Assembly (NCBI GenBank): GCA_019058015.1
Contig: JAHLWH010000019.1
Location: 1 to 37,758 of the forward strand
Origin: Promethearchaeota archaeon
GTDB lineage: Archaea; Asgardarchaeota; Lokiarchaeia; Sigyniarchaeales; SOKP01
Length of the DNA stretch: 37,758 nt
Reading direction: 5' to 3'
Positions 8,170 through 37,758 of this stretch are shown here, in pieces. Each line of letters opens with the position of its first letter. The stretch's first letter is position 1. The notes under the pieces are model-generated. The model made no database searches, was not told the origin of the DNA, and saw only the letters and a list, made by a program, of their open reading frames with translations. Made by a program: the position numbers and the translations under genes.

Positions 8170-9063
8170 TTATTTTATTGCTTCTAATTGCGCTTGCCTT
8201 TTTGCTAGTAAAAACGAACTTATTATGATAATAATAACACCAACACTCATGTAGATAATAGAAAGGAAGCTAGGAGGAGTTAACATAAATACTATAAAGT
8301 AAAATAATACTGGCGTCACTTGTATGGGAACTTGTTGAATCGGAATCATGTTTGATGCCTGAGCAACTTGAAAAGCTTGCGTAATTTTCATGATTCCAAT
8401 AATACTACCTACAATTAAAATTGCTACACAACAAAGAAATAAAATAAGTTCTCCTAAACTAGAAGTACCTCCGAAGACATGAGCGATGACGCCCATCAAT
8501 GGTGCAATCCAGAAGTTCGTGAGTGAAAATTGGAATCCTGAAGAAATAGCTAATAAAATCCCTTTAAACTTTTTACTTTTTCTTTGAAGAATTTCACATA
8601 AACCGGATCCTATAAATAAAACTACTGTAAAAATAGCCATTCTAAAAACAAGAGCTATTTCTAATAAATCTATATTAGAGATATCAATTGACAATTCACT
8701 AATACCGAGTAAGAAAATCGCAAGTATCATTAATAATATTCCCGTTATTTCTTCTTTTTTTAAGGTTTCACTAACAATTTTGACAGACCCGATAGCAAGA
8801 AAAATTAAACCAAAAGCCATTAATCCCGGAATTAATGCTGGACCAATATATAACTGAGCCAACATGAAAAATATTGATCCTATTGCTAGTTCCATCAATA
8901 AACCCATTATCCAAAGCGGTTTTTTCACTAAATTACGGAAAAATTTCTCCTCCTCTGCAACAACTTCATTAACTACTTTTTTCTGGAAAACTAACCCGAT
9001 ATTATTCACGCTTCCCGAAGTAATTGCTAGGAAGACCCCAAGCCAATATAAAGAAGCATCCAT
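8170..9063 (-). CDS. NIPA/DMT-superfamily-like membrane protein (paralog)
   Basis: The 297-residue protein has about nine hydrophobic helices and aligns end to end with the protein at 469-1374. Shared blocks include KKPLW/KRPLW, GPALIPGLMA, IFLLGISELSI, the identical SNMIPIQQVPIQ loop, and the QAQLEEIK/QAQLEAIK tail. Sequence shows a membrane permease-like protein but no substrate. The two copies lie about 7 kb apart in opposite orientations, on either side of the GH5, Gfo1 and M24 genes. The start ATG lacks a strong ribosome binding site, and no other in-frame ATG, GTG or TTG is available just upstream. Confidence 0.6.
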   Translation of the reverse strand: MDASLYWLGVFLAITSGSVNNIGLVFQKKVVNEVVAEEEKFFRNLVKKPLWIMGLLMELAIGSIFFMLAQLYIGPALIPGLMAFGLIFLAIGSVKIVSETLKKEEITGILLMILAIFLLGISELSIDISNIDLLEIALVFRMAIFTVVLFIGSGLCEILQRKSKKFKGILLAISSGFQFSLTNFWIAPLMGVIAHVFGGTSSLGELILFLCCVAILIVGSIIGIMKITQAFQVAQASNMIPIQQVPIQVTPVLFYFIVFMLTPPSFLSIIYMSVGVIIIIISSFLLAKRQAQLEAIK

Positions 9064-9317: not shown

Positions 9318-9722
9318 TTAGACCGTCATGCCACCATCAATAGACAAGCTTATTCCAGTGCAAAATTTATTGAGAGCAAGAAATAGCACACCTTCTGCAA
9401 TTTCTTCGGGTGATCCTAACCTTCCCAAAAGTTGGCGTGCAATAAATTGACTTCTTGGTTCCTCAGGATGTTCAAATTTTGCTAATCGTTTAGCTAGAGA
9501 AGGTGTATCAGTTGTACCTGGGCAAATACAGTTTACTCTTATTCGATCTTCGATATAATCAATAGCCATAGCTCTCGTCATGGATAACACTGTACCTTTA
9601 GATGCAGTATACGCAGTTCTTTCCTTAACTCCTTTAAATGCAACAGATGAAGCATTATTTATTATTGTTCCTTTAGTTTTTTTCAAATAATGAATAGCAT
9701 ATTTTGATACTAAATAAATAAA
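9318..9722 (-). pseudogene. 5'-truncated SDR gene (duplicate of the 11096-11842 SDR)
   Basis: Only the C-terminal part of the operon SDR is present, matching that protein from about residue 116 to the end. The Tyr-x3-Lys and C-terminal GGM segments are retained, but the whole cofactor-binding TGxxxGIG half is missing, so it cannot bind NAD(P). The DNA is close to the intact copy: I count 5 differences over the 60 bases aligned from 9331 and 11109, all transitions. The open frame runs on to 9770, but its first 16 codons are antisense to an M24 peptidase remnant, so they are accidental. It is a recent broken duplicate. Confidence 0.85.
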
Positions 9723-9863
9723 TCTATTAATCAGATGATTATTTATATTGAAGTTTGGCAAAATTTTCAAAATTTTGGCTTACTTGGAATTGAAGATTGT
9801 ATTACAATTATCAATACTGATTGCGAAAGGCTTTCGAGCCTTGACAAGAATATTTTTATTTAA
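9723..9863 (+). pseudogene. 3' remnant of an M24 peptidase gene
   Basis: Translating the + strand in the frame ending with the TAA at 9861-9863 gives about 45 residues that match the last part of the M24 protein encoded at 6433-7557. They include IEVWQNFQNFGLLGIEDC (intact gene: IEIWQNFKNQGLIGVEDC) and end with CERLSSLDKNIFI. Everything 5' of the metal-ligand Glu region is gone. The fragment joins the truncated SDR head to head at about 9720, in the orientation opposite to the intact M24 gene. The upstream edge is approximate because similarity fades around 9714-9729. Confidence 0.82.
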
Positions 9864-9895: not shown

Positions 9896-11020
9896 TTATC
9901 CAGAATAATTATTCTGAATTACATGTTCTAAGCCTTCTATTATGCTCTTAGTTCCTTTTGTTTGATAAATTTCCATTAAGTCTTCAATATTAGCAGTTTT
10001 TCCCATTTTTGCAGATAAATAACCAAGAAGTATAGTGGAGATTGCCGATCTCGCTTGTTCAGGAGTAAATTCAGGCTCTTTATCTTCTAGAATACAATTA
10101 ATGAAATGTGAATCTTCAATTCGAGAAGAAATTTCATAATATTTAGGATAAGGTCCATGTTCAATTTTAGGTTCATACCAAATTCCAGAGTTTTTTCTGA
10201 AATCTTCATGAGTTGAATTAATTTTAACTGGATTTTTCCAAGCATGATTTTCTAAAATTGTTCCTTTTGTTCCATATATTTCTAAACTATTAGTTGGAGG
10301 AGTAACAACACAAAAGCTAACGACTGTTTCTGCGATTACTTTATTTTTATATTTTAAAAAAATCATTGCATTATCTTCTGCTTTTTCATTAAGGCTCGTA
10401 CATTGTTTTGTTAACCAGCAATAAGCAGATTCTACTTCATCATTCAATATCCAATTCATTGTAGCAAATTTATGAGCTCCCATATCCATTAAGCAACCTC
10501 CACCAGCCATAATTAGATGACCTTTCCAAGATTTAGGATCTAAAAGTGCTGGAATTTCATTAACGCCTTCATAAGAACGAACCAAAAACACATTTCCAAT
10601 CAATCCGTTCTGAACTGCTTCCATTATATATTTATGAGCAGGTAAAAATCTATGGTTCTCTGCAATCATAAATTTAACACTTGCTTTTTTAGTCGCCTTA
10701 ATCATTTTGTCACAACCTTCTAATGTTGTAGCCATTGGTTTTTCACAAAGAATATGTTTTCCAGCTTCAGCAGCAGTTATTACCATTTTTTCGTGAAGAT
10801 AGTGCGGCATCATTAAAAGAATTGCATCAATATCGCTATTAAGAAATTTTTCATAAGTTGGGAATGCAGTTAATTTAAATTTTTTAGCGTTTATTTTCGA
10901 TTTCTTCTTATCAGCGTCATAAATTGACATTAATTTAATTTTCGGGTTGCTTTTACAAGCATTACTATGAATTCTCCATGCTTCACCACATCCAACAATA
11001 CCTAATTTAACAAAATCCAT
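9896..11020 (-). CDS. Gfo/Idh/MocA-family oxidoreductase (copy 2)
   Basis: This 374-residue protein has the same layout as copy 1: a Rossmann glycine loop near residues 8-12, a CEKPMATTLE segment carrying the catalytic Lys, and MAGGGCLMDMGAHK in the substrate domain. I start it at the ATG at 11020 because AAAGGA precedes it at good spacing and copy 1 begins with the same MDFVK. The longer frame from 11041 has no such support. It is the last gene of the KDG kinase operon, 75 bases after the SDR. It is probably an NAD(P)-dependent dehydrogenase for a sugar or sugar acid; the substrate is not known. Confidence 0.9.
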   Translation of the reverse strand: MDFVKLGIVGCGEAWRIHSNACKSNPKIKLMSIYDADKKKSKINAKKFKLTAFPTYEKFLNSDIDAILLMMPHYLHEKMVITAAEAGKHILCEKPMATTLEGCDKMIKATKKASVKFMIAENHRFLPAHKYIMEAVQNGLIGNVFLVRSYEGVNEIPALLDPKSWKGHLIMAGGGCLMDMGAHKFATMNWILNDEVESAYCWLTKQCTSLNEKAEDNAMIFLKYKNKVIAETVVSFCVVTPPTNSLEIYGTKGTILENHAWKNPVKINSTHEDFRKNSGIWYEPKIEHGPYPKYYEISSRIEDSHFINCILEDKEPEFTPEQARSAISTILLGYLSAKMGKTANIEDLMEIYQTKGTKSIIEGLEHVIQNNYSG

Positions 11021-11095
11021 AATATTTTCCTTTAAAAACATTCATATTCAAAAATAAATTTAATTAAAAATTATTTCTAGTTTTATAGTATCTCT

Positions 11096-11842
11096 TTAAA
11101 TTATCATGCCACCATCAACAGACAGGCTTATTCCAGTGCAAAATTCATTGAGAACAAGAAATAACACACCCTTCGCAATTTCTTCGGGTTTTCCTAGCCT
11201 TCCTAAAGGTTGGCGTGCAATGAATTGGCGTCTTGCTTCTTCAGGATCATCAAATTTTGCTAATCGTTTAGCCAGAGAAGAAGTATCAGTTGTACCTGGG
11301 CAAATACAATTTACTCTTATTCGATCTTCGATATAATCAATAGCCATGGCTCTCGTCATGGATAATACTGCACCTTTAGATGCGGTGTATGCAGCTCTTT
11401 CCTTGACTCCTTTTAATGCAACGGATGAAGCATTATTTACTATTGTTCCTTTAGTTTTTTTTAAATAAGGAATAGCATATTTCGATATTAAATAAATCCC
11501 ACGTACATTTACAGCCATTGTTTTATCCCAATCTTCAGTAGAAATATTGTCTATTCTCCCTGGAAGTACAATACCTGCATTATTAAAAAGAATATCAATT
11601 TTTCCATATTTTTCAATTGTTTTTATTATAATTCTCTTAGCATCTTCTTCTTTCGAAACATCCCCTTGAATAAAAATAGCATCACCACCCGAACTTTTAA
11701 TGGTATTCACAACTTTTAAAGAAGACTCAGATAAAGAGTTGCAACAAACTTTGGATCCTTCTTTAGCAAATAAGACAGCTGTTGCCCTTCCAATGCCCGC
11801 TCCCGCTCCAGTAATAATAGATACTTTTCCTTCCAATTTCAT
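11096..11842 (-). CDS. SDR-family oxidoreductase of the KDG operon
   Basis: The 248-residue protein carries TGAGAGIG (11-18), NNAG (87-90), Asn112, Ser139/140, Tyr152 and Lys156, and ends with DGGM. Residues after the second strand (Asn35-Ser36) are not acidic, which leans toward NADP. A strong ribosome binding site (GGAGGG) precedes the ATG. It follows the BKACE gene by 32 bases, so it likely acts on a sugar acid or keto acid in the same pathway. A truncated copy of its 3' part lies at 9318-9722. Confidence 0.9.
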   Translation of the reverse strand: MKLEGKVSIITGAGAGIGRATAVLFAKEGSKVCCNSLSESSLKVVNTIKSSGGDAIFIQGDVSKEEDAKRIIIKTIEKYGKIDILFNNAGIVLPGRIDNISTEDWDKTMAVNVRGIYLISKYAIPYLKKTKGTIVNNASSVALKGVKERAAYTASKGAVLSMTRAMAIDYIEDRIRVNCICPGTTDTSSLAKRLAKFDDPEEARRQFIARQPLGRLGKPEEIAKGVLFLVLNEFCTGISLSVDGGMII

Positions 11843-16835: not shown

Positions 16836-17162
16836 TTATACTACTAAATTTTTTTTATATTTTTTTAAAATTTTTACGATTTCTAATTCCGCTTCGGAGA
16901 TTCTATATTTTAAAGCAATATTTCTTTTTTTAAGTTCATCGATTATTTGCCATATTGATATACCCGCTATTTCCGCTGCTTTTCCCAAAGAAATTTTTTC
17001 ATCTATATAATCTTTAAGAGCATATTCAAGTTTTTCTTGAGCAATACTTTTCCATAATAATCGTCTTATCAATGAAGATTGCTCTTCTTTAAATAAATTT
17101 CGTAAATCATCAATTTCTTTTTTCAAATCATCAGGTATTACAATTGATATTTTATCTCCCAT
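16836..17162 (-). CDS. UPF0175-family antitoxin
   Basis: I start this gene at the ATG at 17162 (108 residues) because AAGGTGA lies just upstream. A longer frame from 17225 reads through the toxin gene. An N-terminal ribbon-helix-helix-like segment (ISIVIPDDLKKEIDDL) is followed by the UPF0175 helix-turn-helix signature ISLGKAAEIAGISIWQII and a basic C-terminus. Family members pair with DUF3368 PIN toxins, exactly what lies upstream. The start overlaps the toxin's end by 11 bases. The order here is toxin first, antitoxin second, so translational coupling probably sets their ratio. Confidence 0.85.
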   Translation of the reverse strand: MGDKISIVIPDDLKKEIDDLRNLFKEEQSSLIRRLLWKSIAQEKLEYALKDYIDEKISLGKAAEIAGISIWQIIDELKKRNIALKYRISEAELEIVKILKKYKKNLVV

Positions 17163-17649
17163 ATTTTTCACCTTTTTCAATATATTCTTGAAGAATATCT
17201 GCTGATACCCAACTATCTTCAGCATAATTTTTTATATTTGATTTATATTCGAATAAATCAAACTTTTTTGAAATTAATAATTCGAACATCGTCGCAATAG
17301 TAGTTTGGAAGTTAATTCTTAATATTTGCGCAACATTTCGAGCTTTCTTGTCATCAATAATTAGAAGTCTATTCTGTTGTTTTGCTAATTCAAGCGCTTC
17401 TGTTTCACCTTTACCTAAATGTGGATATTGTGATTTTTCAAAATCCTTTAAATTTATCACAATTATTTTTTCCTCATTAATATATTTTTCAATAATATAA
17501 GATTCTGAGTAATTATTTTCTTTACCTTCAATAACCAATTCATTATAAACAGCCTTAGGAATTAAAATCTCATTAAAATGATCGATTACATAACCAATTT
17601 TGCCTAATTTTGTTAAATGAATTAATGGACTTGAATTTGAAATTACCAT
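17152..17649 (-). CDS. PIN-domain toxin, DUF3368 type
   Basis: The 165-residue protein opens with VISNSSPLIHL, in which Asn replaces the usual first PIN aspartate, as is common in DUF3368 members. Further acidic sites sit in GKGETEALELA and IDDKKAR, the rest of the Mg-binding RNase pocket. It should be a ribonuclease toxin inhibited by the downstream UPF0175 protein. No ribosome binding site precedes the ATG, and a TATA-like box lies about 26 bases upstream, so the transcript may be leaderless. An inverted repeat at 17668-17685 overlaps that box. Confidence 0.82.
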   Translation of the reverse strand: MVISNSSPLIHLTKLGKIGYVIDHFNEILIPKAVYNELVIEGKENNYSESYIIEKYINEEKIIVINLKDFEKSQYPHLGKGETEALELAKQQNRLLIIDDKKARNVAQILRINFQTTIATMFELLISKKFDLFEYKSNIKNYAEDSWVSADILQEYIEKGEKYGR

Positions 17650-22432: not shown

Positions 22433-22936
22433 ATGGAAAGGATGTCGCAACTAAACTTTATGGATATTTATAAATTTTTACCAAAAACTAATTGTAAGGA
22501 ATGTGATTTGCCTACATGTATGGCATTTGCCTTAGCATTGGTTAAGGGTGAGAAACAGCCAAAAGATTGTCCTCCACTTCTCGAACCTAAGTATAAACAA
22601 AGTTTAGATAAATTAAATGAGTTATTTGAAGGGGTAGGAGTGGGGGGAAAAGACTTACATATTGATATTGATAATGAAAAATGTGATGGGTGCGGCGTAT
22701 GTGTGATTGTTTGTCCTGTTAATGCTCGATATTGTCCTAATTCTTTAAGTGGAAAATTACCAGATTTCCCTCCCAATGAATATCAATTATTTCAAATAAA
22801 AAACGGAAAATCAGAACTTTTAAATTTGGAATATTGTAGAAGATTAGAAGCAGAAGGACGAGAGCGTGAATGCCGAGTATGTGAAGTATATTGTCCACGG
22901 GATTCAATAGAAATTAAGTATTATACAGCCAAATAA
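22433..22936 (+). CDS. Fes-domain plus ferredoxin Fe-S protein of Fwd set A
   Basis: The 167-residue protein has an N-terminal Fes-type motif with Cys21, Cys24, Cys29 and Cys46, as at the N-terminus of acetyl-CoA decarbonylase/synthase gamma subunits. A classic CxxCxxCxxxCP ferredoxin site follows at Cys84, 87, 90 and 94. A final group at Cys135, 147, 150 and 154 may bind another cluster. It is the first gene before FwdB, 50 bases away, and probably delivers electrons to the FwdBD catalytic unit in place of FwdF/FwdG. An internal ATG at codon 4 is a possible alternative start. Confidence 0.8.
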   Translation: MERMSQLNFMDIYKFLPKTNCKECDLPTCMAFALALVKGEKQPKDCPPLLEPKYKQSLDKLNELFEGVGVGGKDLHIDIDNEKCDGCGVCVIVCPVNARYCPNSLSGKLPDFPPNEYQLFQIKNGKSELLNLEYCRRLEAEGRERECRVCEVYCPRDSIEIKYYTAK

Positions 22937-22986: not shown

Positions 22987-24321
22987 ATGACTCAAAGTAC
23001 AAAAAATCAAGAAAGAATCCAGAGATTTGTGTGTCCTGGATGTTCATTATATTGCGACGATAATCAAGTCATATATTCCGAAAATAATGAAATTATCGAG
23101 ACTTATGGTTTATGCTTAAAGGGTTATAAAAAATTAAATGAAATTAATTCAAAAAATCGCATCAAAAAACCCTTAATTCGCAAGAATGGTGAGTTAAAAG
23201 AAGTATCATTAGATAAGGCACTAAATAAAGTTAAAGAAATTATTAACTCTTCCCAAAAATCCCTCCTATATGGTTTTGTTAATACAACTTGTGAAGCACA
23301 AATAAATGGAATATGGCTTGCCAAGAAAATAAATGGATTCATTGAGTCTAATGCATCAATTTGTCATGGTCAAACTTATTCGAATGCTATCGAGAGTGGA
23401 TTCCATTCTACTACATTAAATGAATGTATTAATAAAGCTGACGTATTTATATTTTGGGGTTCTAACGCTGCAGAGTCCAACCCGAAATTTTTAACAAAAA
23501 CAATTTTTTCAAGAGGTAAATTTAGAATAACGGGAAGAGAAATAAAAACATTAATTTTAGTTGATCCTCGAAAAACCGCGACTTATGGAGTTGCTGGAGT
23601 TCGGGATTTGTATATTCCTTTAAAACCTGGCAAAGATTTGGAGCTAATTCAATTTTTAAAAGATATGATTTTAAAGGAAAAATCCGAAGTACCAGCTGAT
23701 GGTTTTGTTGGTGTTGATAAACAGGATTTAAATCGTCTCATCCTAAATTTGAAAGGTTCAGAAAATGGTGTAATCCTTTTTGGACAAGGAGTAATTAATT
23801 CCAATCCTAATGGAAATGTTATAAAGGCTTTAATTGAATTGGTGGATTTGATTAATGAAACTTCTAAGAGAAGTCGTTTTTCAATTATTCCTATGACCGG
23901 GCATAATATGAATGGTTTTATCCAAGTTTCTTTATCTTTATTGGGAAAAATGGACCAAATAGAATTTTCTGATAACCAACTTATCGAATCAAATAAAGAC
24001 TTAATTTCTAAAATAAAGGATGACGAATTTGACATGTCCATTATCGTTGCTTCGGATCCAATATCTAATTTACCGATAACCCTAAGCTCCAAATTAGCAA
24101 AAAAACCCATAATTGCAATTGATTGCTTTATTACCCCTACAACAAAATTAGCTGATGTTATATTGCCCGTGGCAATTACAGGAATAGAAACTGATGGACT
24201 TGTGTATAGAATGGATAATATTCCTATGAATTTGCAAAAAATAATCGATCCACCAGCTAATCTGCCTTCTGATGAGCAGATTTTGCTGAAAATAATACAA
24301 AAAATGGAGGAAAAAAGATGA
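22987..24321 (+). CDS. fwdB: Formylmethanofuran dehydrogenase subunit B (set A)
   Basis: The 444-residue molybdopterin-dependent catalytic subunit has the [4Fe-4S] ligands Cys16, Cys19, Cys23 and Cys43, and the Mo/W-coordinating Cys126 in ASICHGQTY. The formate dehydrogenase-like core includes FWGSNAAESNP, VDPRKTAT and VASDPISNLP. It interconverts CO2 and formate (then N-formyl-methanofuran via FwdA) in the reductive acetyl-CoA pathway. It is divergent from the set B FwdB at 28851-30167 but keeps all active-site cysteines. Its stop overlaps the next start (ATGA), a sign of tight coupling with FwdD. Confidence 0.9.
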   Translation: MTQSTKNQERIQRFVCPGCSLYCDDNQVIYSENNEIIETYGLCLKGYKKLNEINSKNRIKKPLIRKNGELKEVSLDKALNKVKEIINSSQKSLLYGFVNTTCEAQINGIWLAKKINGFIESNASICHGQTYSNAIESGFHSTTLNECINKADVFIFWGSNAAESNPKFLTKTIFSRGKFRITGREIKTLILVDPRKTATYGVAGVRDLYIPLKPGKDLELIQFLKDMILKEKSEVPADGFVGVDKQDLNRLILNLKGSENGVILFGQGVINSNPNGNVIKALIELVDLINETSKRSRFSIIPMTGHNMNGFIQVSLSLLGKMDQIEFSDNQLIESNKDLISKIKDDEFDMSIIVASDPISNLPITLSSKLAKKPIIAIDCFITPTTKLADVILPVAITGIETDGLVYRMDNIPMNLQKIIDPPANLPSDEQILLKIIQKMEEKR

Positions 24322-24692
24322 AATTACTGTTAAGTACAATACGCGAGTTAAAATATGATCAAAAAATCCTTATTAATGAATTATCTGAGAAAGAGCTCAA
24401 AGATAATGTAGCTATCTGCTTAATTCATCCAGAAACATACAATAAAATTGTGTCAAAATCTGGAGTAAATTTAAAATTAACAACCAGTTATGGTTCAGTT
24501 GTTTTAAAGCCAGTTTGGGATGAATCTATTCCCTTAGAAATGATTTACATAAATAAATCAATTTGGGCTAATCAAATCACCGGGGATTTTAAGCAAAAAA
24601 TTCTTTTTAAAAATTTAGAGGTTGAAATTGAGCCAACGGAAGAGGATGTTCCAGAAATCTCTAATCTATTAGAAAAACTGAAAAATTTCTAA
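24318..24692 (+). CDS. fwdD: Formylmethanofuran dehydrogenase subunit D (set A)
   Basis: This 124-residue protein has the molybdopterin-dinucleotide-binding beta-barrel domain, with VAICLIHPETYNKI, a GSVVLKP strand, and the IYINKSIWANQI segment that corresponds to IPMGPWANAV in the set B copy. In methanogens FwdD is a separate small subunit that completes the FwdB cofactor pocket. Its start overlaps the FwdB stop by 4 bases (ATGA), with GGA upstream. The glycine- and proline-rich cofactor loop (GPxP) seen in other FwdDs is shorter here. Confidence 0.85.
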   Translation: MKLLLSTIRELKYDQKILINELSEKELKDNVAICLIHPETYNKIVSKSGVNLKLTTSYGSVVLKPVWDESIPLEMIYINKSIWANQITGDFKQKILFKNLEVEIEPTEEDVPEISNLLEKLKNF

Positions 24693-24708: not shown

Positions 24709-26385
24709 ATGTCCAATTTAATTATAAAAAATGGGATTGTTTTTGATCCGATAAATAATATTTCTGGTGAAAAGAAGGATTTATTAATTGAAGCAGGAAA
24801 AATTGTTGATAAATTCAAACACACTAATCCAAAAGATGCAAAATCTATAGATGCCAGTGGTAAAACAGTCATCCCAGGCGCAATAGATATTCACACGCAT
24901 ATTGCCTCACAACAAACTAATAATATCCGATTATTGGGCTCAAAAAATAAAGAAGTTCTACAATTTTGGAATGGGCTTACACTGGATTACTTAACAAAAG
25001 AATATGTTCAAAAGGGGTATACTTTTATTGTTGAGGCAAATGTATTCCCATCCTTAGCCAAACAAACTATTTTTAATTTTGGTCAAATTCCAATTTTAGA
25101 TAAAGCAATGCTGATTAATGCCAGCAATTTATGGTCTCTTGAATTGGAATATCAGAAGGGAGATATTGAAAAATTGTCAATATTTATCTCTGACTTCTTG
25201 GATTTAATCAAAGGTTTTGGAATAAAGATATATAATCCTTTTGAAGCAGAAGAATGGGATTTTAAAGAAATCAGAGATGATATAACGACAAATGGTCGAC
25301 TTTATAATTTTAATGCACTGGACGTTTTCAGAAATATGACTAAAACAATTGAGCAAATTGGATTACCCCATTCCATCCATGCTCATATTGACGGATATGA
25401 ATCAAAGATCGGGGAGTTAAATGCCATAAAAGTATTAGAGGATATTAAAACTCAAGGACTCACACCAAATCAATCAAGTCAAACAAAAATTAAACGTTCT
25501 CAAATATTCCATTTAGCTCATGCATCTGCTTATTCTTTTAACGACGATACTAAATTGATTAATTTTTTCAATTCAAATGACAATTTTGACCTTGATTTAG
25601 GTTTTATAAGTTTCAATCCTATAAATCCCCTAATTACATCGGATAGAAGGTTAATTAATAAATATTTGGATAAGAAAAAAGCTCCTAAGAAGTACCCCAT
25701 AATTAAAGGTGCAATTGAATCTGAAGGGGATCATTTTGAAACTTTCAGGACACTAAAAAAAGATAATTCGGAGTATTGCATGCTCTGGTCAAATGCTTTA
25801 AATTTAGCTTTAAGGATAAAAGATAAATGGAAACTTCAATTTTCAATAAATTTTCCCAATTATGCCCATTTAACTGACATTCCAGAAATTATCTCATGGT
25901 TATTGAATAAAAATTCTAGGACCACTTTTATGGAAAATATGAATAATGAATTTAAACAAGACAATCCAATCTTTAATATAGAAGATACTTTTTCCATTAA
26001 TGATTTAATAATCATAACACGAGCAAGTCCAGCTAAATCTTTGGGCTTGGGAGATATAAAAGGAAATTTGGGTATTGGAGCCGATGCAGATATTAATATT
26101 TTAAATATAAATCTTCAAGAAAAAGACTCAGCTTCTCAAATAGATGAGATTAAGAAAGCTTTTTCTGATATAGATACCGTGATTAAGAATGGAATTATTG
26201 TAAAACAGGGTGAAAAGATAAATCTAAATCATAAAGGTTCACTTTATTGGTCAAAAGGCACAGTTAATACCCAAAATTATGAAAAAATTATGGATAAAAA
26301 AAAGGAATTTTATAAAAAATATAGCTCAATCTTCTATGAATCATTGAAACCAAATACTGATAAAATTAAGTTAATTAAAATATAA
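24709..26385 (+). CDS. FwdA-like amidohydrolase lacking the catalytic Asp (set A)
   Basis: The 558-residue amidohydrolase has the FwdA frame: GAIDIHTHIAS (His62, His64), a candidate carboxylated lysine in GIKIYNP (Lys173), LPHSIHAH (His221, 224, 226) and HLAH (His268, 271). The TTDHPNGG segment that carries the catalytic and metal-binding Asp in FwdA reads SINFPN here: Asn381 and Phe382 replace Asp-His. The LGLGDIKGNLGIGADADI segment near the C-terminus is normal. In FwdA this dinuclear Zn site hydrolyses formyl-methanofuran; the change suggests a lost or different activity. Strong ribosome binding site (GAGAGGAA), 16 bases after FwdD. Confidence 0.85.
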   Translation: MSNLIIKNGIVFDPINNISGEKKDLLIEAGKIVDKFKHTNPKDAKSIDASGKTVIPGAIDIHTHIASQQTNNIRLLGSKNKEVLQFWNGLTLDYLTKEYVQKGYTFIVEANVFPSLAKQTIFNFGQIPILDKAMLINASNLWSLELEYQKGDIEKLSIFISDFLDLIKGFGIKIYNPFEAEEWDFKEIRDDITTNGRLYNFNALDVFRNMTKTIEQIGLPHSIHAHIDGYESKIGELNAIKVLEDIKTQGLTPNQSSQTKIKRSQIFHLAHASAYSFNDDTKLINFFNSNDNFDLDLGFISFNPINPLITSDRRLINKYLDKKKAPKKYPIIKGAIESEGDHFETFRTLKKDNSEYCMLWSNALNLALRIKDKWKLQFSINFPNYAHLTDIPEIISWLLNKNSRTTFMENMNNEFKQDNPIFNIEDTFSINDLIIITRASPAKSLGLGDIKGNLGIGADADINILNINLQEKDSASQIDEIKKAFSDIDTVIKNGIIVKQGEKINLNHKGSLYWSKGTVNTQNYEKIMDKKKEFYKKYSSIFYESLKPNTDKIKLIKI

Positions 26386-28033: not shown

Positions 28034-28846
28034 CTACCTCGCTACATATAATCTTCCTTTAGTTTTTGCACTTGTTGCATGATCTCCACTATATTCAATA
28101 AACTTACCTGAGATCTTTTCACCGTCTGGCAATTCGATTTCTGAAACTTCTCCAATTTTTTTAAAGGATGGCATTATCCTGCCGATTTTTCCTTTCACTA
28201 CGACGAATCCACGCGCTTGATCGGCAGCAACTCGAGCTTCCGCATTACCTTCACAAATAATTATACCTCCGTGATTATGAAGGCCGAAAAACTGACCTGC
28301 AGAACCACAGATTAATTTTGGGAACCTTTTTTTTGGAGTAGAACCTCGAGCCCAAATCATTGATTCATATCCAACACTTCCTTTAACTTTTATCACTCCA
28401 TTTGTCATACCTTCCCAATTCCCTCTATATGCAGCACCTACATAATTCCCCGCATTCCCTGTAATTTCTAATTCGCCTCCTTCCATCATTGCTCCTGCCC
28501 AATCCGCAGCATTACCATTCACTACAATTTTTCCTCCATTCATTGTATTTCCTACGTGCATTCCCACATCTCCATTAATTGTAATTGCCCCACCGGACAT
28601 TTTTTCCCCGATTCTTTTTACTTTTGACAAATTTCCATTTATCACAATTTCAATATCATCTAAATTATTACCAGCCGTGCCTTTAATATCAAAATAATCT
28701 TTAAGTGAAAGTTTTTCATTACCATGAAATATTATTAGATTCGCTATGTCTTTTTGTGTTTTACCTTTGAAGTTATCAGGGGTTATGGATTCTGCTTCAA
28801 GAGAAAAAGTGGGTTCCTTCTTTAAAGTTAATTCAATCTTTCCCAT
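28034..28846 (-). CDS. fwdC: Formylmethanofuran dehydrogenase subunit C (set B)
   Basis: The 270-residue protein is a right-handed parallel beta-helix built from GG.I.V.GNA-type repeats (MSGGAITINGD, MNGGKIVVNGN, MEGGELEITGN). This is the glutamate-synthase-alpha-subunit-like domain characteristic of FwdC. It acts as structural scaffold in the FwdABCD core. I use the ATG at 28846, preceded by AAAGGTGA at good spacing; a GTG at 28858 overlaps FwdB. It lies 4 bases after FwdB and is the only FwdC in the window. Confidence 0.9.
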   Translation of the reverse strand: MGKIELTLKKEPTFSLEAESITPDNFKGKTQKDIANLIIFHGNEKLSLKDYFDIKGTAGNNLDDIEIVINGNLSKVKRIGEKMSGGAITINGDVGMHVGNTMNGGKIVVNGNAADWAGAMMEGGELEITGNAGNYVGAAYRGNWEGMTNGVIKVKGSVGYESMIWARGSTPKKRFPKLICGSAGQFFGLHNHGGIIICEGNAEARVAADQARGFVVVKGKIGRIMPSFKKIGEVSEIELPDGEKISGKFIEYSGDHATSAKTKGRLYVAR

Positions 28847-28850
28847 TCTT

Positions 28851-30167
28851 CTACTCACCTTTTAACTCCTTTACTTTTTCAATTAATTTTTCTATAATCT
28901 CATAATCTGCCATACAATCTTCGGGAGCATTTTTCACTTTTCTCAATCTAATTGGCACTTTATCCATACGATATGCCGTTCCTTCACATTCAATCCCGGC
29001 AATTGCTGGAGGGAGAATTATATCTGCCATTTCAGAAGTCGGCGTTTTATGGGGCTCAACGGATATTAAAGGTTTTTTTAGCATATTGATTACAGCATCT
29101 TTTGGAAAATTTGAAGCGGGGTCTGAGGCCACAATCAAGGTAACATCAAAATCGTTTCTTTTTAATATATCTACTGCTGAAAACTCACCTGGATTATAGC
29201 GGGGATAATCTCTTGAAAAATCTATGGAATATGGGTAACCAGTTGTCCATGTAAATACAATATTTGCTCCTGAAACATTATAATGACCTCTCATTGGAGT
29301 TAAATTAAATTTAGTATGCTCATTCAATTCCCTGATAAGACTTATTCCTGCATCTACATTTCTATGCTTGCCTTTTGACATAGTTAAGCCAAGACCAAAA
29401 AATAATACACCGAACTTACAAGATTTAAGGATTTCAACAAGCTCTTTAATTTGCTTGATAGGAACTCCTGCTACTTCTTTAACATCTAATTCTACACCAC
29501 GACACATAGCTCTAATAGCATTAAACAATTCATAATCTTCGCCAGGATTTAATCTAATATGCATATCTGCCATTTGGGCGGTATGAGTTGTTCTAGGATC
29601 TACAACAATTATTGTTCGGTCAAGATGGCCATCTACTCTGAAATAACCGCGAATAAAATCACTATATCGACTCATATGCCTTGGATGAGCATGAACTGGA
29701 TTGGAGCCCCAAAATAAAACTAAATCTGCCCGATTTTTATATTCACCCAAAGTACTTGTTGGGCAACCAACATCTTGAATAGCGAGAAGTGAAGGTCCGT
29801 GACAAACAGATGCGGTATTATCAAGAACTCCACCACAAATTTCCATTAATTCAACAGCCTTTCGCTGCGCATCACATTCGGTTGAACTCCATCCATATGA
29901 TAATGGTCTCTTTGCATTTGCTAATAGCTCAGCGGCTTTATTTAATGCTTCATCCCAAGTAACTTTCTCTAATTTGTCATTATTTCTCATCATAGGTTTT
30001 GTATATCTGTGCTCTGACACATTCGATGAGAAAAATTTTGCAGTTCCTATAGCACAAGCATTATCTACTTCAATAATCTTATTATCTTCTAAAATAATTT
30101 TTAAATCATCACAAAGCGTCCCACAGAAAGGACAAACTACATCTTCAAAATTTTTAAATTTTTTCAT
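28851..30167 (-). CDS. fwdB: Formylmethanofuran dehydrogenase subunit B (set B)
   Basis: The 438-residue catalytic molybdopterin subunit has cluster ligands Cys12, Cys15, Cys19 and Cys38, and a Mo/W-binding Cys122 in ASVCHGPS. It contains the FWGSNPVHAHPRHMSRY and VDPRTTHTAQMADMHI segments of canonical FwdB. It should reduce CO2 to formate with electrons from the adjacent ferredoxin-like subunits. It lies in FwdD-FwdB-FwdC order with short gaps. The set A copy is clearly diverged, so the two enzymes are likely distinct rather than redundant. Confidence 0.93.
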   Translation of the reverse strand: MKKFKNFEDVVCPFCGTLCDDLKIILEDNKIIEVDNACAIGTAKFFSSNVSEHRYTKPMMRNNDKLEKVTWDEALNKAAELLANAKRPLSYGWSSTECDAQRKAVELMEICGGVLDNTASVCHGPSLLAIQDVGCPTSTLGEYKNRADLVLFWGSNPVHAHPRHMSRYSDFIRGYFRVDGHLDRTIIVVDPRTTHTAQMADMHIRLNPGEDYELFNAIRAMCRGVELDVKEVAGVPIKQIKELVEILKSCKFGVLFFGLGLTMSKGKHRNVDAGISLIRELNEHTKFNLTPMRGHYNVSGANIVFTWTTGYPYSIDFSRDYPRYNPGEFSAVDILKRNDFDVTLIVASDPASNFPKDAVINMLKKPLISVEPHKTPTSEMADIILPPAIAGIECEGTAYRMDKVPIRLRKVKNAPEDCMADYEIIEKLIEKVKELKGE

Positions 30168-30182
30168 TTACTTTGCCTCTTT

Positions 30183-30563
30183 CTATTTATAACTTTTAAT
30201 TATTTCTAATGCTGTAAGAATCCTTCCACTTTTTACTACTTCAACCTCTGCTTCCGTTCCTTTGTATGAGGGCATACCGGTGCCATATGTTTCGGAATTA
30301 ATAACAGCATTTGCCCAAGGACCCATTGGAATAAAGATAATGCCAGGATGGGGTCCTTGTTCTGAAATTTGAGAATATACAACCACTTCCCCAAATTTTG
30401 TAGTGACCTTGACAGGTGTTCCAATCATACAATCCAATTTTGCAAAATCGTCTTTATCAAATTCACAAATTGCACAAGCTTTTATATTTTCCCTTCCTAG
30501 CTTTTGACCTTCAAGGGCAACTCCCTGGTCTATGGTTCGACCGGTGGTTAGAAAAAACTTCAT
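30183..30563 (-). CDS. fwdD: Formylmethanofuran dehydrogenase subunit D (set B)
   Basis: This 126-residue molybdopterin-dinucleotide-binding barrel starts MKFFLTTGRTIDQGV, a typical FwdD opening, and has GTPVKVTTKFGEVVV and IFIPMGPWANAVI. The ATG at 30563 overlaps the stop of the FwdF-like gene (ATGA) and is preceded by GGAAAGGA, so I prefer it to the upstream start at 30578. It completes the cofactor pocket of the set B FwdB, whose gene follows after 15 bases. Confidence 0.9.
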   Translation of the reverse strand: MKFFLTTGRTIDQGVALEGQKLGRENIKACAICEFDKDDFAKLDCMIGTPVKVTTKFGEVVVYSQISEQGPHPGIIFIPMGPWANAVINSETYGTGMPSYKGTEAEVEVVKSGRILTALEIIKSYK

Positions 30564-31273
30564 TTTATTCCTTTCCACCCCCTTCTCATTATTTTCAATC
30601 GTTCAACCATATCTGGCCAAAACGGCTCGTTATAATCACCAGAATATTTTACTTCAGTAATTTCAAGCTTTATTGCACCTGTTGGACAAGCATTATCACA
30701 AGTTCCACAATATATGCATTTTTTATCATCAAGCTCAATCTTAGGAGATTTTTCCCAACCAGGTGTTTCTTTTTGTTTTTCTGGAAGCGTTATAGCTCCC
30801 GTGGGGCAAACATCAACGCAAGTAGAACAACCACCTGCACATTCTTCTATAACAATACTGATCTTCCCTTCAACATACTGTTTAGCTTGACGGCCAATTT
30901 TTTCACAATCTTTTAATTCAAATTCTAATTTAGGTAGTGCTTTCTTTTGAACTAATGGTAAATCAATAGATTCTACTTTCTCATCATTATAATAAATTGA
31001 GAGCGCAAAGAATGGGCACATATAGACACAAACTCCACAAAAACTGCATTTATTCGGGTCATATATGTTTGGAACAAGATCTTCAGTAGATAACTTTATT
31101 GTTGCACCTATTGGTCCTCTAGATACAGCTTCCATAGGACAGACTTTGGAACATACTCCGCAACCCACACATTTTGTTTTATCCAAATCAAGCTGAGTAC
31201 TTTCAATCAAATATTTTACTCGAACACTTTCCATTTCTTTTGTTATTGTCCTTGATATTTTTGGAAATGACAT
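30560..31273 (-). CDS. Short FwdF-like polyferredoxin, four [4Fe-4S] sites
   Basis: The 237-residue protein has four clear CxxCxxCxxxCP-type sites: CVGCGVCSKVCP, CSFCGVCVYMCP, CAGGCSTCVDVCP (with one extra residue) and CIYCGTCDNACP. Canonical FwdF carries eight clusters, so this is about half its cluster count. It should be an electron wire in the Fwd complex, feeding FwdB from the HdrA/MvhD side. The gene overlaps FwdD by 4 bases. The start at 31273 is weakly supported (no good ribosome binding site). Confidence 0.85.
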   Translation of the reverse strand: MSFPKISRTITKEMESVRVKYLIESTQLDLDKTKCVGCGVCSKVCPMEAVSRGPIGATIKLSTEDLVPNIYDPNKCSFCGVCVYMCPFFALSIYYNDEKVESIDLPLVQKKALPKLEFELKDCEKIGRQAKQYVEGKISIVIEECAGGCSTCVDVCPTGAITLPEKQKETPGWEKSPKIELDDKKCIYCGTCDNACPTGAIKLEITEVKYSGDYNEPFWPDMVERLKIMRRGWKGIK

Positions 31274-32027: not shown

Positions 32028-34034
32028 TTATTTACTCCCATTTTCTGTTTTTGCTAGTGGTGGAATGGCTGTATTGATCATAGCAAAAATTTGATCATCT
32101 GAAAAGTGATTCTGGACAATAGCATCTGATGGACAAGCCGCAGCGCATGTTCCGCAGCCTTTACAAAGAGCTTTATTGATAACTGCAATATTTTTAAATA
32201 CATCAAAACTTATTGCATTAAATGGACATAAGCTTTGACATGATTTACATCCGCTACATTTATACTCCAGAACTACAGAATAATATGGTTCGATTGCAAA
32301 TTCTCCCATTGCCATTAACGAAGCGGCACCAGAAGCTGCTCCTTTAGCTTGTGCTACAGCATCAGGTATATCCTTGGGTCCTTGAGCTACACCTGCAACA
32401 AATATACCATCTGTTAATGTGTCAACTGGACGAAGTTTCGGATGTGCTTCCATGAAGAACCCATCTGCAGAGCGTTGAATTGTCAATATTGAAGCAATCT
32501 GATCTGCATCATATCGGGCTACTAAACCGCATGATAAAACCAACATATCCAACTTAATTTCTATCTGCTTTTGAAGTAAAGTATCTTCAGCACGAACTAT
32601 AATGCTGTGATCTTCATCCTCATAAACTTCACCTATTCTGCCGCGAATATATTTTATTCCGAAATTTCTTCCAGCGGATTCATAAAATTCTTCATACCCC
32701 TTGCCAAACGCACGAATGTCCATATAAAAAATATAAATAGATGCTTCTGGATGCTTTTCTTTGTACTGTCTTGCTTGTTTGGTTGCATACATACAACAAA
32801 CACGGGAACAGTAATTATTTCCACCAGGGCGGAAGTTTCTACTCCCTACACATTGTAAAAACCCTATACTATGAGGTGGTTCTAAATCTGAAGGCCTTGC
32901 TGGTTTCCCTTCAAGAGGCCCAAACGAACTCAATAACCTTTCCATCTCTAACCCATTAATAACATTCGGATATTTACCGTATCCATACTGTTTTAATTCG
33001 GTAGGATCATATAAATCCCAACCGGTTGCAACAATTATTGTTCCTACTTTAATCTCGACATATTCAAGTTTATCATCAAACCTTATGGCATCCGGCTCAC
33101 AAACTTCCGGAGTTGCACAAATACCGCATTTTATACATTTTGTCATATCAATTGTAAATTCTCCTGGAACTGCTTGCGGGAATGGAATATAAATAGCCTT
33201 TCTTATTCCCAATCCCACCTCAAATTCATTAGCACATATAACAGGACATTCTATAGCGCATAAACCGCAACCCGTACATGCTTCTTGATCAACATAATGA
33301 GGTTTTTTCTTAATGGTTACATCAAAATTTCCTACATATCCATCTACCTTCTCAACTTCGGAATATGTCATAAGATGGATTTTTTCTTCCCTGCCAACAT
33401 CAACCATTCTTGGAGTTAAAATACATGCACTACAATCCATTGTCGGAAAGGTTTTATCTAATTGAGCCATATGCCCCCCTATAGTTGCCGTCCTTTCCAC
33501 CAAATAAACATCATATCCTTCTTTAGCTAAATCAATAGAAGCATTCATCCCAGCAATTCCAGCACCAATCACTAAACAAGCAGGCTCTACTTTTACTCGC
33601 TCAACTTCTAACGGTTTTAATTCACTTAATTTAGCAACAGCCATCCTAACGTGATCTTTAGCAATTTTAAACGCCCCTTCAGGATCATCTAAATTTACCC
33701 ATGTTGCATGCTCACGAATATTTGCCATCTCAAATAGAAATTCATTTACTCCTACCTCTTTAACCACCATTCTAAATGTTGGTTCATGCATTCGAGGACT
33801 ACATGCAGCAACAATCACACGATTTATTAATCCAGCTTCTATATCTTCCTTAATCATCTCTTGCCCTATACTGCTGCATATGAATTTATATTCCTTCGCA
33901 AGAGCAACATTTGGTAAAGTCTTCGCATATTCAGTAAGAGCAGGTACATCTATTACTCCAGCAATATTGATGCCACAATGGCATACGTAAACACCAATCT
34001 TTATTTCTTCATCATTTCTTAATGAATTAGACAT
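32028..34034 (-). CDS. hdrA: Heterodisulfide reductase subunit A, flavin-bifurcating
   Basis: The 668-residue protein has an N-terminal domain with VCHCG, then the FAD loop VIGAGIAGMNAS (about 152-163) and the HdrA-specific MDCSACILTPRM cysteine site. An inserted two-cluster ferredoxin (CTGCGLCAIECP, CIKCGIC) and a C-terminal two-cluster ferredoxin (CSGCKSCQSLCP, CKGCGTCAAACP) complete it. In HdrABC complexes FAD in this subunit bifurcates electrons between a disulfide-type acceptor at HdrB and low-potential ferredoxin. The ATG has AAAGGTGTGG upstream. Full-length and apparently intact. Confidence 0.94.
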   Translation of the reverse strand: MSNSLRNDEEIKIGVYVCHCGINIAGVIDVPALTEYAKTLPNVALAKEYKFICSSIGQEMIKEDIEAGLINRVIVAACSPRMHEPTFRMVVKEVGVNEFLFEMANIREHATWVNLDDPEGAFKIAKDHVRMAVAKLSELKPLEVERVKVEPACLVIGAGIAGMNASIDLAKEGYDVYLVERTATIGGHMAQLDKTFPTMDCSACILTPRMVDVGREEKIHLMTYSEVEKVDGYVGNFDVTIKKKPHYVDQEACTGCGLCAIECPVICANEFEVGLGIRKAIYIPFPQAVPGEFTIDMTKCIKCGICATPEVCEPDAIRFDDKLEYVEIKVGTIIVATGWDLYDPTELKQYGYGKYPNVINGLEMERLLSSFGPLEGKPARPSDLEPPHSIGFLQCVGSRNFRPGGNNYCSRVCCMYATKQARQYKEKHPEASIYIFYMDIRAFGKGYEEFYESAGRNFGIKYIRGRIGEVYEDEDHSIIVRAEDTLLQKQIEIKLDMLVLSCGLVARYDADQIASILTIQRSADGFFMEAHPKLRPVDTLTDGIFVAGVAQGPKDIPDAVAQAKGAASGAASLMAMGEFAIEPYYSVVLEYKCSGCKSCQSLCPFNAISFDVFKNIAVINKALCKGCGTCAAACPSDAIVQNHFSDDQIFAMINTAIPPLAKTENGSK

Positions 34035-34049
34035 TTATTTTCCACACCT

Positions 34050-34997
34050 TTATATCATTTGCTCTTTTATTTTTTGTATTAATGGTTGAATTGAAATAAA
34101 TGGGGGAACTCCTTTCAAATCATGACCAGCCACAAGCCCTAAATCTCCCGGGTTCATACCCATTGCTAATCCTAATAATTGATTGTAATAAATAATGGGA
34201 ATTTTATATGACTCGCCTATAATATCTTTAAATTTATCATTTACTTGCATTTGACCAAGATCCATTTGTAAATGACAAAATGGGCAACAAACTATACAAC
34301 AATCCACATTAACTTTTCGCATATTTTCAAGTTTTTCCCTTGTAAAATCAAGAGAAACCTCTAATGATGCTGTTCGGACGGCTCCTCCAGCACCACAGCA
34401 CATAATCTTATCTTTATAATCGATGCTTTTTGCACCCGTTATCTCAACCAATTCATCAAAGAATCTCGGTTCTTCATATTCCCCTCCCCAAGGCCTATTG
34501 GATGAATCTTTAAGAATATGGCAACCATAATGCACGCCAACTCTTAAATCTGGAAACTTAATCTTGATATAATCTTTAAGTTTATCAATACCAAAATCAT
34601 AATATAATACTTCAATTAGATGTTTAACCTCAATTGTTCCTTTGAATTCCCTCCCAATTTTCGCAAGATGTTTATTAACCATATCCCGTTTTTTCTTATC
34701 ATGCTTTAATAGATGATTTACTTCAAGTAGAGTTCCATAGCAACCGTTGCATCCCAGTGTAATATCTGCTTCATTCTCTTCGGCTATTGAAATATTTCGT
34801 GCTCCAATAACGAGCCAAGTTGTGATATCAAAACCCCTAAAAACCCCAGGAGCTGGACAGCAACTCGCACCTTGCATATCTACTAATTCAATTCCCAATT
34901 CTTTAAAGGTATTGCGAATGGATTGTTCAATAAAAGGGTATCTATTGGGAATAACACATCCTAGATATAATGAATATCTTAAGTTTTTTTCAGACAT
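34050..34997 (-). CDS. hdrB: Heterodisulfide reductase subunit B
   Basis: The 315-residue protein contains two CCG domains, with LGC, SCCPAPG and CNGCYG in the first, and YGC, MCCGAGG and CCPFCHLQMD in the second. These ligate the two noncubane [4Fe-4S] clusters where HdrB reduces disulfide. I use the ATG at 34997, since the family begins at about this residue; a longer GTG start at 35036 adds 13 unaligned residues. In an organism without evident coenzyme M/B genes the physiological disulfide is unknown. Confidence 0.92.
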   Translation of the reverse strand: MSEKNLRYSLYLGCVIPNRYPFIEQSIRNTFKELGIELVDMQGASCCPAPGVFRGFDITTWLVIGARNISIAEENEADITLGCNGCYGTLLEVNHLLKHDKKKRDMVNKHLAKIGREFKGTIEVKHLIEVLYYDFGIDKLKDYIKIKFPDLRVGVHYGCHILKDSSNRPWGGEYEEPRFFDELVEITGAKSIDYKDKIMCCGAGGAVRTASLEVSLDFTREKLENMRKVNVDCCIVCCPFCHLQMDLGQMQVNDKFKDIIGESYKIPIIYYNQLLGLAMGMNPGDLGLVAGHDLKGVPPFISIQPLIQKIKEQMI

Positions 34998-35132
34998 AAT
35001 GGTTTTTCTTTCTTTGATTAAATTGGGGTAAAACACATTCTCTGAACTTAAGTAATTAATTATTCAATTTGTATTAAAATTTTAGATTAAAAGATATACA
35101 AAATTGTGGAGGAAAGGTTATATTTTAAAATA

Positions 35133-36501: not shown

Positions 36502-37062
36502 TTACTTTTTTTCCGCTTTTTCTTCTTTTTTAGCGTATTTTCCCCAAGCAATAGTTTTATCAAAGCCCACACTACTAATTAATTCTTGCACTTCTTTAAC
36601 GTATTTAGGATCCGTATGGACTGTTGGAGGAACTCTGTTTACACCATAGGATTCTCTCATAATGTTCCATTTTTCATCATTAATGGGAACCCCATGACCT
36701 GTATCATAGAACATCCTACATAAATTGAGATGATTTGGCAAAATATACCCTCTTTGAACCGCTAAATTTCTTAAGAATATAATCATATCTGTAATCGGCA
36801 GATTACGCGGACATCTTTCAAAACAAGTATAGCAAGTAGTACAGAGCCAGAGTTCTTTATCTGAGAGAACTTCTTCAAGTCCTAAAATCGCTTTTCTAAT
36901 TATCGAGCGTGTTCTCAATGCAGTCCTTCTTCCGGAGGGACAACCGGCTGTGCAATTACCGCACTGAATGCAAGCACCAATTTCCGCATATCCTGCTTTT
37001 CTAAGTTCATTAGAGATATCATCTTTAATCTCTAAGATTCGATCAGATTTTAAATCTTCCAT
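36502..37062 (-). CDS. hdrC: Heterodisulfide reductase subunit C
   Basis: The 186-residue protein has two [4Fe-4S] sites in CIQCGNCTAGCPSG and CTTCYTCFERCPR, the HdrC pattern, with the usual helical C-terminus. A strong AAGGAGG ribosome binding site precedes the ATG. It relays electrons between HdrA and HdrB. The Lys/Glu-rich tail (YAKKEEKAEKK) is slightly longer than usual. It directly follows the FwdA gene (11 bases), linking Fwd and Hdr in one transcript. Confidence 0.93.
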   Translation of the reverse strand: MEDLKSDRILEIKDDISNELRKAGYAEIGACIQCGNCTAGCPSGRRTALRTRSIIRKAILGLEEVLSDKELWLCTTCYTCFERCPRNLPITDMIIFLRNLAVQRGYILPNHLNLCRMFYDTGHGVPINDEKWNIMRESYGVNRVPPTVHTDPKYVKEVQELISSVGFDKTIAWGKYAKKEEKAEKK

Positions 37063-37073
37063 TTTAATCCTCC

Positions 37074-37758
37074 TTAAGTGAGTGTAGTAATAATTTTTTG
37101 TTTAGGAAGATATGCTTCTTGAACGGGATAATTATTAAAATTAATTGAATAATGGTCTCTCCATTTCTCTTTTATATCTTGTATTACAGATTTCATGAGA
37201 TCATCACTTACACTTGCTTTTGTCCAAATGGTATTACCAAGTGGTGTGGCTACAACCTTTCCATCTATTACAACGATTTTTCCATCTTTTATTGTGTAAG
37301 ATGCATTTGTGAATGCTTTTTCGATTTCAATTCCTTTATGTCGATTATCAGGATTGAATTTATATAGGCAAACATCAGCTTGAGCACCTACTCCAAGATG
37401 ACCTTTCTCCGCAAAACCTAGGCATTTAGCTGTTCCAGAGCGAGTACATTGGGCTAATTCATAAAGTGTTAATTCGGTATCCAAATTTTCTAGTTCTGTA
37501 GCTGAGCTTGCTTTGGGTGATAATTCTTCCTTAAGCAAGATATCTCTGGATTTCTTATCCATAAGCCATTTTATAATTCTTGGATAAAACGTAAAAGGTC
37601 CACCATTGGGGTGGTCGGTCGTCAACAGTACTTGCTCTTTATTTTTCACAGATAACAACAATTCCAATCCAATAGCCCATTGAATTGCATTCACGGCAAC
37701 CTTTGGGCTAAATATATATGGCACAAGTCCGGAGCCGCATTCTGCCTCTACTTGACCA
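37074..37758 (-). CDS. fwdA: Formylmethanofuran dehydrogenase subunit A, C-terminal part (set B)
   Basis: The frame runs off the right window edge; the first in-frame GTG at 37724 is not the real start, since the reading frame continues upstream with family-like EAECGSGLVPYIFSPK. The visible ~227 residues contain the catalytic TTDHPNGGPFTFYPR segment, intact here in contrast to set A, and the GVGAQADVCLYK C-terminal region. It hydrolyses formyl-methanofuran at its dinuclear Zn centre. It is the most upstream visible gene of the Hdr-Fwd cluster. Confidence 0.92.
   Translation of the reverse strand, partial: GQVEAECGSGLVPYIFSPKVAVNAIQWAIGLELLLSVKNKEQVLLTTDHPNGGPFTFYPRIIKWLMDKKSRDILLKEELSPKASSATELENLDTELTLYELAQCTRSGTAKCLGFAEKGHLGVGAQADVCLYKFNPDNRHKGIEIEKAFTNASYTIKDGKIVVIDGKVVATPLGNTIWTKASVSDDLMKSVIQDIKEKWRDHYSINFNNYPVQEAYLPKQKIITTLT

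Follow-up and report, generated by a model that had tools for sequence, protein, structure and literature searches.

Asparagine at the place of the presumed catalytic aspartate in a Lokiarchaeal paralog of the formylmethanofuran dehydrogenase subunit FwdA

The window analyzed here is a stretch of 37,758 nucleotides from a Promethearchaeota archaeon (contig JAHLWH010000019.1, assembly GCA_019058015.1), and it contains two sets of genes related to formylmethanofuran dehydrogenase (Fwd). Set A is read from the forward strand. It starts with a small AcsC-type Fe-S protein (22433..22936), in which an N-terminal [4Fe-4S] domain of the CdhE/AcsC type (PF04060) is combined with ferredoxin-type Cys motifs; 12 Cys of this protein are conserved across all the paralog groups described below and leave room for three [4Fe-4S] clusters. 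The next genes encode FwdB*, a paralog of FwdB (22987..24321), FwdD*, a subunit with a molybdopterin dinucleotide-binding domain (24318..24692), and FwdA*, a paralog of FwdA with the amidohydrolase fold (24709..26385). The frame of the latter, described as intact in an earlier note on this DNA, is indeed uninterrupted from its ATG start and encodes 558 aa.

Set B is carried by the reverse strand and comprises a canonical FwdC (28034..28858), the sole FwdC found in the genome of the window, a canonical FwdB in which CH...MRGH is kept (28851..30167), FwdD (30183..30578) and a FwdF-like polyferredoxin assigned by homology and position (30560..31273). Reading of the sequence identifies an HdrA-like subunit adjoining this set (32028..34034, reverse strand) and, beyond it, an HdrB-like gene (34050-35036) followed by an HdrC-like gene (36502-37062). 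The C-terminal part of the set B FwdA (37074..37757, reverse strand) ends at the contig end. At one end of contig C105, which belongs to this genome too, lies a canonical FwdA cut off within its N-terminal half (L002 1453-2487); a hydrogenase small-subunit-like gene precedes it. Since both contig ends lie inside a canonical FwdA, they probably meet, although no sequence overlap was found between them. The left half of the window contains pairs of similar genes, encoding multi-spanning membrane proteins (469-1374 and 8170-9063), oxidoreductases (5197-6330 and 9896-11041) and short-chain dehydrogenases (9318-9770, which looks truncated, and 11096-11842). Two overlapping small genes (16836-17225 and 17152-17649) were judged by eye to be VapBC-like, with an antitoxin-type protein and a PIN-type toxin.

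In the FwdA of M. wolfeii, Asp385 is the residue which we take to be catalytic. The corresponding place in FwdA* is occupied by Asn381 (codon AAT, 25849..25851, forward strand), because SINFPN aligns over TTDSPN. Pairwise phmmer comparisons place FSINFPN over the LTTDSPN or LTTDHPN of the solved FwdA chains 5t5i, 9sw6, 7bkb and 8rja, and the same Asn381/Asp385 column is obtained in a MAFFT alignment of 80 related sequences. A misaligned Asp column can be ruled out, the pairwise and multiple alignments being in agreement and the flanking P-N and the next block being aligned as well. The earlier note had claimed the loss of the catalytic Asp, as part of a selective loss of Asp-His, from the comparison with the set B FwdA, used as an internal control. 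This control does read TTDHPNGG and the loss of Asp is upheld, but the His does not belong to a catalytic pair: M. wolfeii has Ser386 at this position, so that only the Asp matters and the loss of the DHPN His is uninformative. The substitution is not a peculiarity of one sequence either. Asn occupies the column in 51/51 full-length FwdA* orthologs, from 51 genomes of one Lokiarchaeal family, and Asp in 24/24 canonical FwdA. Even if its score with the TIGR03121 model of FwdA (302.1 bits) falls under the curated cut-off of 392.75, FwdA* is still recognizable as a homolog and matches the FwdA chains of solved structures along its whole length. In a review of these enzymes, a role in formate condensation is given to a "conserved aspartate", cited without a residue number (PMC11656701).

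The metal site around this position is otherwise preserved, as the earlier note had stated for the N-terminal HxH, Lys173 and the later His. The ligands are His62-x-His64 (24892..24900), Lys173 (25225..25227, equivalent to the carboxylysine Lys178 of M. wolfeii), His226 (25384..25386, His231 of M. wolfeii) and His271 (25519..25521, also His271 in M. wolfeii), all encoded on the forward strand. H62, H64, K173, H226 and H271 are kept in 51/51 orthologs and H224 in 50/51. A second change concerns Lys64, proposed to be the gatekeeper of the formate cavity (PMC11656701): its place is taken by Gln69 in the window (24913..24915, forward strand), by Gln in 49/51 orthologs and by Glu in the other 2/51, versus Lys in 24/24 canonical FwdA. 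Identity between FwdA* and canonical FwdA is about 28%. At seven columns, canonical FwdA has one constant residue and set A another; five of these seven lie at most 6 residues from a metal ligand (hypergeometric test against all canonical-invariant columns, P ~0.035). The new invariant residues of FwdA* include E179, E231, Y175, Y230 and N381. The sequences show no other Asp in the metal site, but they do show two clade-specific invariant Glu near the ligands, Glu179 (25243..25245, Gly184 in canonical FwdA) and Glu231 (25399..25401, Gly236 in canonical FwdA), both on the forward strand and standing in sequence 5-6 residues past the carboxylysine and His231, respectively. These two residues might assume acid/base work.

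The other subunits of set A have not remained canonical. FwdB* keeps the four N-terminal [4Fe-4S] Cys and the Mo/W-ligand Cys126 (C118 in M. wolfeii), which are present in every set A row covering them, and its score with the TIGR03129 model of FwdB (358.5 bits) is over the cut-off of 327.8. Arg288, present in all canonical FwdB rows covering the site, is replaced by Thr304 in the window (23896..23898, forward strand), by Gly, Thr or Ser in set A as a whole and by Ala or Ile in the related groups I-III. The equivalent Arg of formate dehydrogenase has been proposed as the site where formate, CO2 and azide bind, and the nitrate-reductase states are Arg-to-Thr plus His-to-Met (PMC10385643). The place of His119 is occupied by His127 in the window and by Gln or Leu in all other genera of the clade; H157, H160 and R187, conserved in all canonical FwdB, are lost in most set A FwdB*. 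The statement of the earlier note that FwdB and FwdD are intact could thus not be maintained, FwdB* being devoid of Arg288 in every ortholog and having His119 only in the genus of the window. FwdC, the beta-helix subunit that stabilizes the formate cavity (PMC11656701), is absent from every set A locus examined. Complete fwdC occurs in at most one copy per genome in the family, and the copy of the window belongs to set B. As far as these residues can tell, formate handling is lost from both catalytic subunits; since Arg288, Lys64 and FwdC are also gone, the substitution of Asp385 is not merely a one-residue loss within a working CO2-reducing complex.

Of 227 Asgard genomes searched, 51, including that of the window, contain a full-length FwdA* ortholog, with identities of 48-94%, and all 51 belong to the window's own family. 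A contig scan with the single FwdA* protein returned only the three nearest relatives, and the named near relatives are Lokiarchaeota MAGs. Almost all sufficiently long loci repeat the order Fe-S protein, FwdB*, FwdD*, FwdA*, so that the replacement is conserved, as Asn, within a clade sharing the same gene order. The frames are open in nearly all of the 51 genomes, and comparison with near relatives gives dN/dS values of 0.15-0.17 for FwdA* and, for the three remaining genes of set A, of 0.07-0.27. A pseudogene or a sequencing artefact is ruled out by these open frames and by the dN/dS of about 0.16. Together with the conserved ligands, the latter value agrees with the selective loss, as opposed to general decay, proposed in the earlier note.

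The surroundings of set A are less constant than its internal order. A distance of 2-3 kb separates set A from set B and HdrABC in the genus of the window; the two sets are far apart in other genera. The neighbors include MinD/NBP35-type ATPases, a NifX-like protein, an MttB-like protein and other genes. In about ten Lokiarchaeal loci (L077, L036, L038, L040, L044, L046, L053, L055, L056 and L183) the upstream start of the operon encodes a NifX-like protein and two MinD-type ATPases with inserted ferredoxin domains, and an NBP35-type ATPase adjoins set A in about eight other genomes. A role in methylamine or methyl-transfer metabolism, considered because of MttB/UroD-type neighbors, is unsupported, these neighbors not being conserved.

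The phylogeny places set A within a wider Asgard family. In a maximum-likelihood tree, FwdA* of the Lokiarchaeal family forms a single clade (100/100) and joins the smaller Asgard groups I (family f20 and one f4 genome), II (f26) and III (f19) in one paralog clade (100/100), apart from canonical Asgard FwdA. Lys64 is lost in all four of these groups; Asp385 persists in groups I and II but is missing from set A and most of group III. In group III the metal ligands are eroding too, and one row (L151) has Asp in an eroded site, so that the Asp column is weak evidence in this group. A single origin of the Asp loss, shared by set A and group III, is not favored, as group III groups with the Asp-bearing group I. 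For FwdB, a quick tree assembles the proteins linked to the small Fe-S protein into one Asgard-wide clade distinct from canonical FwdB (SH-aLRT 99), and most sampled Asgard genomes carry both kinds. The R-G-H motif with Arg288 is kept in unlinked canonical FwdB and found in no intact Fe-S-linked FwdB*; in row L229 the only Arg lies within a disturbed tail. Among Fe-S-linked FwdB*, Cys118 is lost in 18/65 rows and the four N-terminal Cys are kept in 65/65, which argues that electron transfer outlives catalysis.

Outside the Lokiarchaeal family, the Fe-S-linked set is found in another company. The order FwdD - FwdF - HdrA - Fe-S protein - FwdB* - CooC - CdhA - CdhC - CdhD - CdhE recurs in f28, where the genes were named by NCBIfam in locus L179, and parts of this type of cluster also occur in f18, f10 and f29. 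Clusters joining Asgard CO dehydrogenase/acetyl-CoA synthase (CODH/ACS) genes to HdrA, a FwdF-type polyferredoxin, FwdD, FwdB* and the Fe-S protein were observed in L179 (1187-13819), L219, L220, L221, L223, L228 and L232; the FwdB* of these clusters is devoid of the Mo/W-ligand Cys. FwdA accompanies the Fe-S-linked set only in f1, f19, f20 and f26 and, in a badly eroded form, in f9. The FwdA-like gene of an f9 genome (L225 2158-3717) has lost the carboxylysine and several His ligands, a decay more advanced than in set A, and its neighbors encode FwdD, HdrBC, FwdF, HdrA, the Fe-S protein and FwdB*. A different archaeal phylum has the Fe-S protein gene ahead of cdhE within a CODH/ACS operon without FwdB (L175 6258-8175; L176, L177). 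No CODH/ACS genes were found beside set A at the Lokiarchaeal loci, and no cdhA match in genomes G111, G100 and G101 (98-99% complete), all of which keep set A. The CODH link is therefore not obligatory in Lokiarchaeal genomes.

On balance, these observations lead us to favor, with modest confidence, the view that set A represents the Lokiarchaeal version of an ancient Fwd paralog distributed throughout the Asgard archaea, which would have abandoned the chemistry of CO2, formate and formyl-methanofuran and persisted as a metal-holding redox module. The residues dealing with formate are gone from FwdA* (Asp385 to Asn, Lys64 to Gln) and from FwdB* (Arg288 to Thr or Gly, and His119 to Gln in most genera). 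The complex would retain its metal centers, the [4Fe-4S] cluster of FwdB* and the Fe-S protein would conduct the electrons, and FwdA* would now be mainly a structural or a newly specialized subunit. The two roles suggested in the earlier note, a structural or regulatory FwdA and a hydrolase for another substrate, may thus both still apply. The clustering of these genes in several further Asgard families makes it probable that the ancestral complex joined HdrA and the polyferredoxin FwdF to CODH/ACS. A bolder formulation, to which we subscribe only tentatively, is that of a second ancient Asgard Fwd-like complex, FwdB*-FwdD*-[FwdA*]-AcsC-type Fe-S protein with HdrA and FwdF, which may have given up formate chemistry to serve as an electron conduit or activator of CODH/ACS, the Lokiarchaeal version being rebuilt further with a new set of acids at the metal site of FwdA.

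The most serious competitor, although we consider it rather unlikely, is an enzyme that remains active on a new substrate: the binuclear site of FwdA* would hydrolyze or condense with Glu179 or Glu231 in place of Asp385, and the Mo/W site of FwdB* would act on a neutral or larger substrate. All 51 orthologs keep the other metal ligands, and every row of set A keeps Cys118. Such strict invariance of Zn ligands and Cys118, combined with the new invariant residues, fits a new catalysis better than a pure electron-carrying or structural role. The seven switched columns, with their excess near the ligands and with the changes from Gly184 and Gly236 to Glu just after the carboxylysine and His231, make a new reaction a real rival. 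Neither a substrate nor a conserved metabolic neighbor suggests what this reaction could be, however, and the losses of H157, H160 and R187 in most set A FwdB* also speak against it. A further possibility, improbable in our opinion, is that FwdA* catalyzes no reaction itself and has a structural or regulatory part in the canonical set B complex of the cell, which it would join or modulate and whose FwdC it would borrow. The presence of no more than one complete fwdC per genome, the proximity of set A to set B and HdrABC in the genus of the window and the FwdA-like features still recognized by the family models would accord with such a role; in almost all genomes, however, set A comes with its own FwdB and FwdD, it is remote from set B in the other genera, and the 28% identity makes shared assembly interfaces doubtful.

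The NifX-like protein and the MinD- and NBP35-type ATPases found near set A could evoke a catalytically silent scaffold for building a metal cofactor, as NifEN is for NifDK. This is very improbable: none of these neighbors was observed in the loci from other Asgard families, where FwdB* is often without the metal-binding Cys. Relaxed, pseudogene-like decay of a redundant second copy, finally, is hardly credible. Set A is dispensable, a relative whose genome is 100% complete (G131) having canonical FwdA only, and metal ligands are lost in the FwdA of group III and of L225. In set A, however, decay is excluded by purifying selection on frames that stay open, and refuted by the invariance of Asn381 and of the metal ligands down to about 50% identity.

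The routine reading of an Asgard genome credits it with one or two formylmethanofuran dehydrogenases, and such gene counts serve to infer the Wood-Ljungdahl pathway and the CO2/formate metabolism of these archaea. Should the second set be unable to handle formate, inferences based on Fwd gene counts need to be corrected. A CODH/ACS-linked Hdr/Fwd-like module, if confirmed, would bear on the supply of electrons to or from acetyl-CoA synthesis in Asgard archaea, a central question for the closest relatives of eukaryotes. The succession of losses also constitutes a natural experiment in the dismantling of a two-site tunnelling enzyme, with Lys64 and Arg288 lost across the paralog groups having these subunits, then Asp385 and His119, and elsewhere the metal ligand itself. 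A literature search limited to papers outside subscription retrieved none describing the set A paralog or the Asgard Hdr/Fwd/CODH gene cluster; one study counts 83 Asgard FwdB homologs, in passages that do not separate the two kinds of FwdB (PMC10100899).

Among the closest known systems is the tungsten or molybdenum Fwd complex FwdABCDFG (M. wolfeii 5T5I, M. hungatei 7BKB, Ca. Ethanoperedens 8RJA). Set A shares with it homologs of FwdA, FwdB and FwdD, the amidohydrolase ligand set except Asp, the Mo/W-ligand Cys and the [4Fe-4S] Cys of FwdB. It differs by the absence of Asp385 and Lys64 in subunit A, of Arg288 in subunit B and of FwdC, and by an AcsC-type Fe-S protein that replaces FwdG/FwdF. 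Pseudoenzymes of the amidohydrolase superfamily, such as CRMP/DRP and the inactive DHOase-like domains, have kept the fold and lost catalytic residues and metal ligands. FwdA* resembles them by its preserved fold and its missing catalytic residue, but it keeps all ligands except the Asp. In methylotrophic bacteria, Fhc (6S6Y) is likewise a Fwd-derived complex, whose B subunit is not a CO2 reductase (PMC11656701, PMC10100899). The set A locus is without FhcC and FhcD, and the two complexes have lost opposite sites: Fhc keeps the hydrolase site and loses the Mo/W-pterin and FwdD, whereas set A keeps FwdD and Cys118 and loses the hydrolase Asp. The Hdr-Fwd supercomplex of M. hungatei (7BKB) and the association of Fwd with an F420-reductase module in Ca. 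Ethanoperedens (8RJA), finally, illustrate how a Fwd core can be joined to Hdr or other electron modules. Several Asgard families resemble them in that HdrA and FwdF are encoded with FwdB*; unlike them, the Asgard cluster also has CODH/ACS genes, and its Fwd core is without the formate residues.
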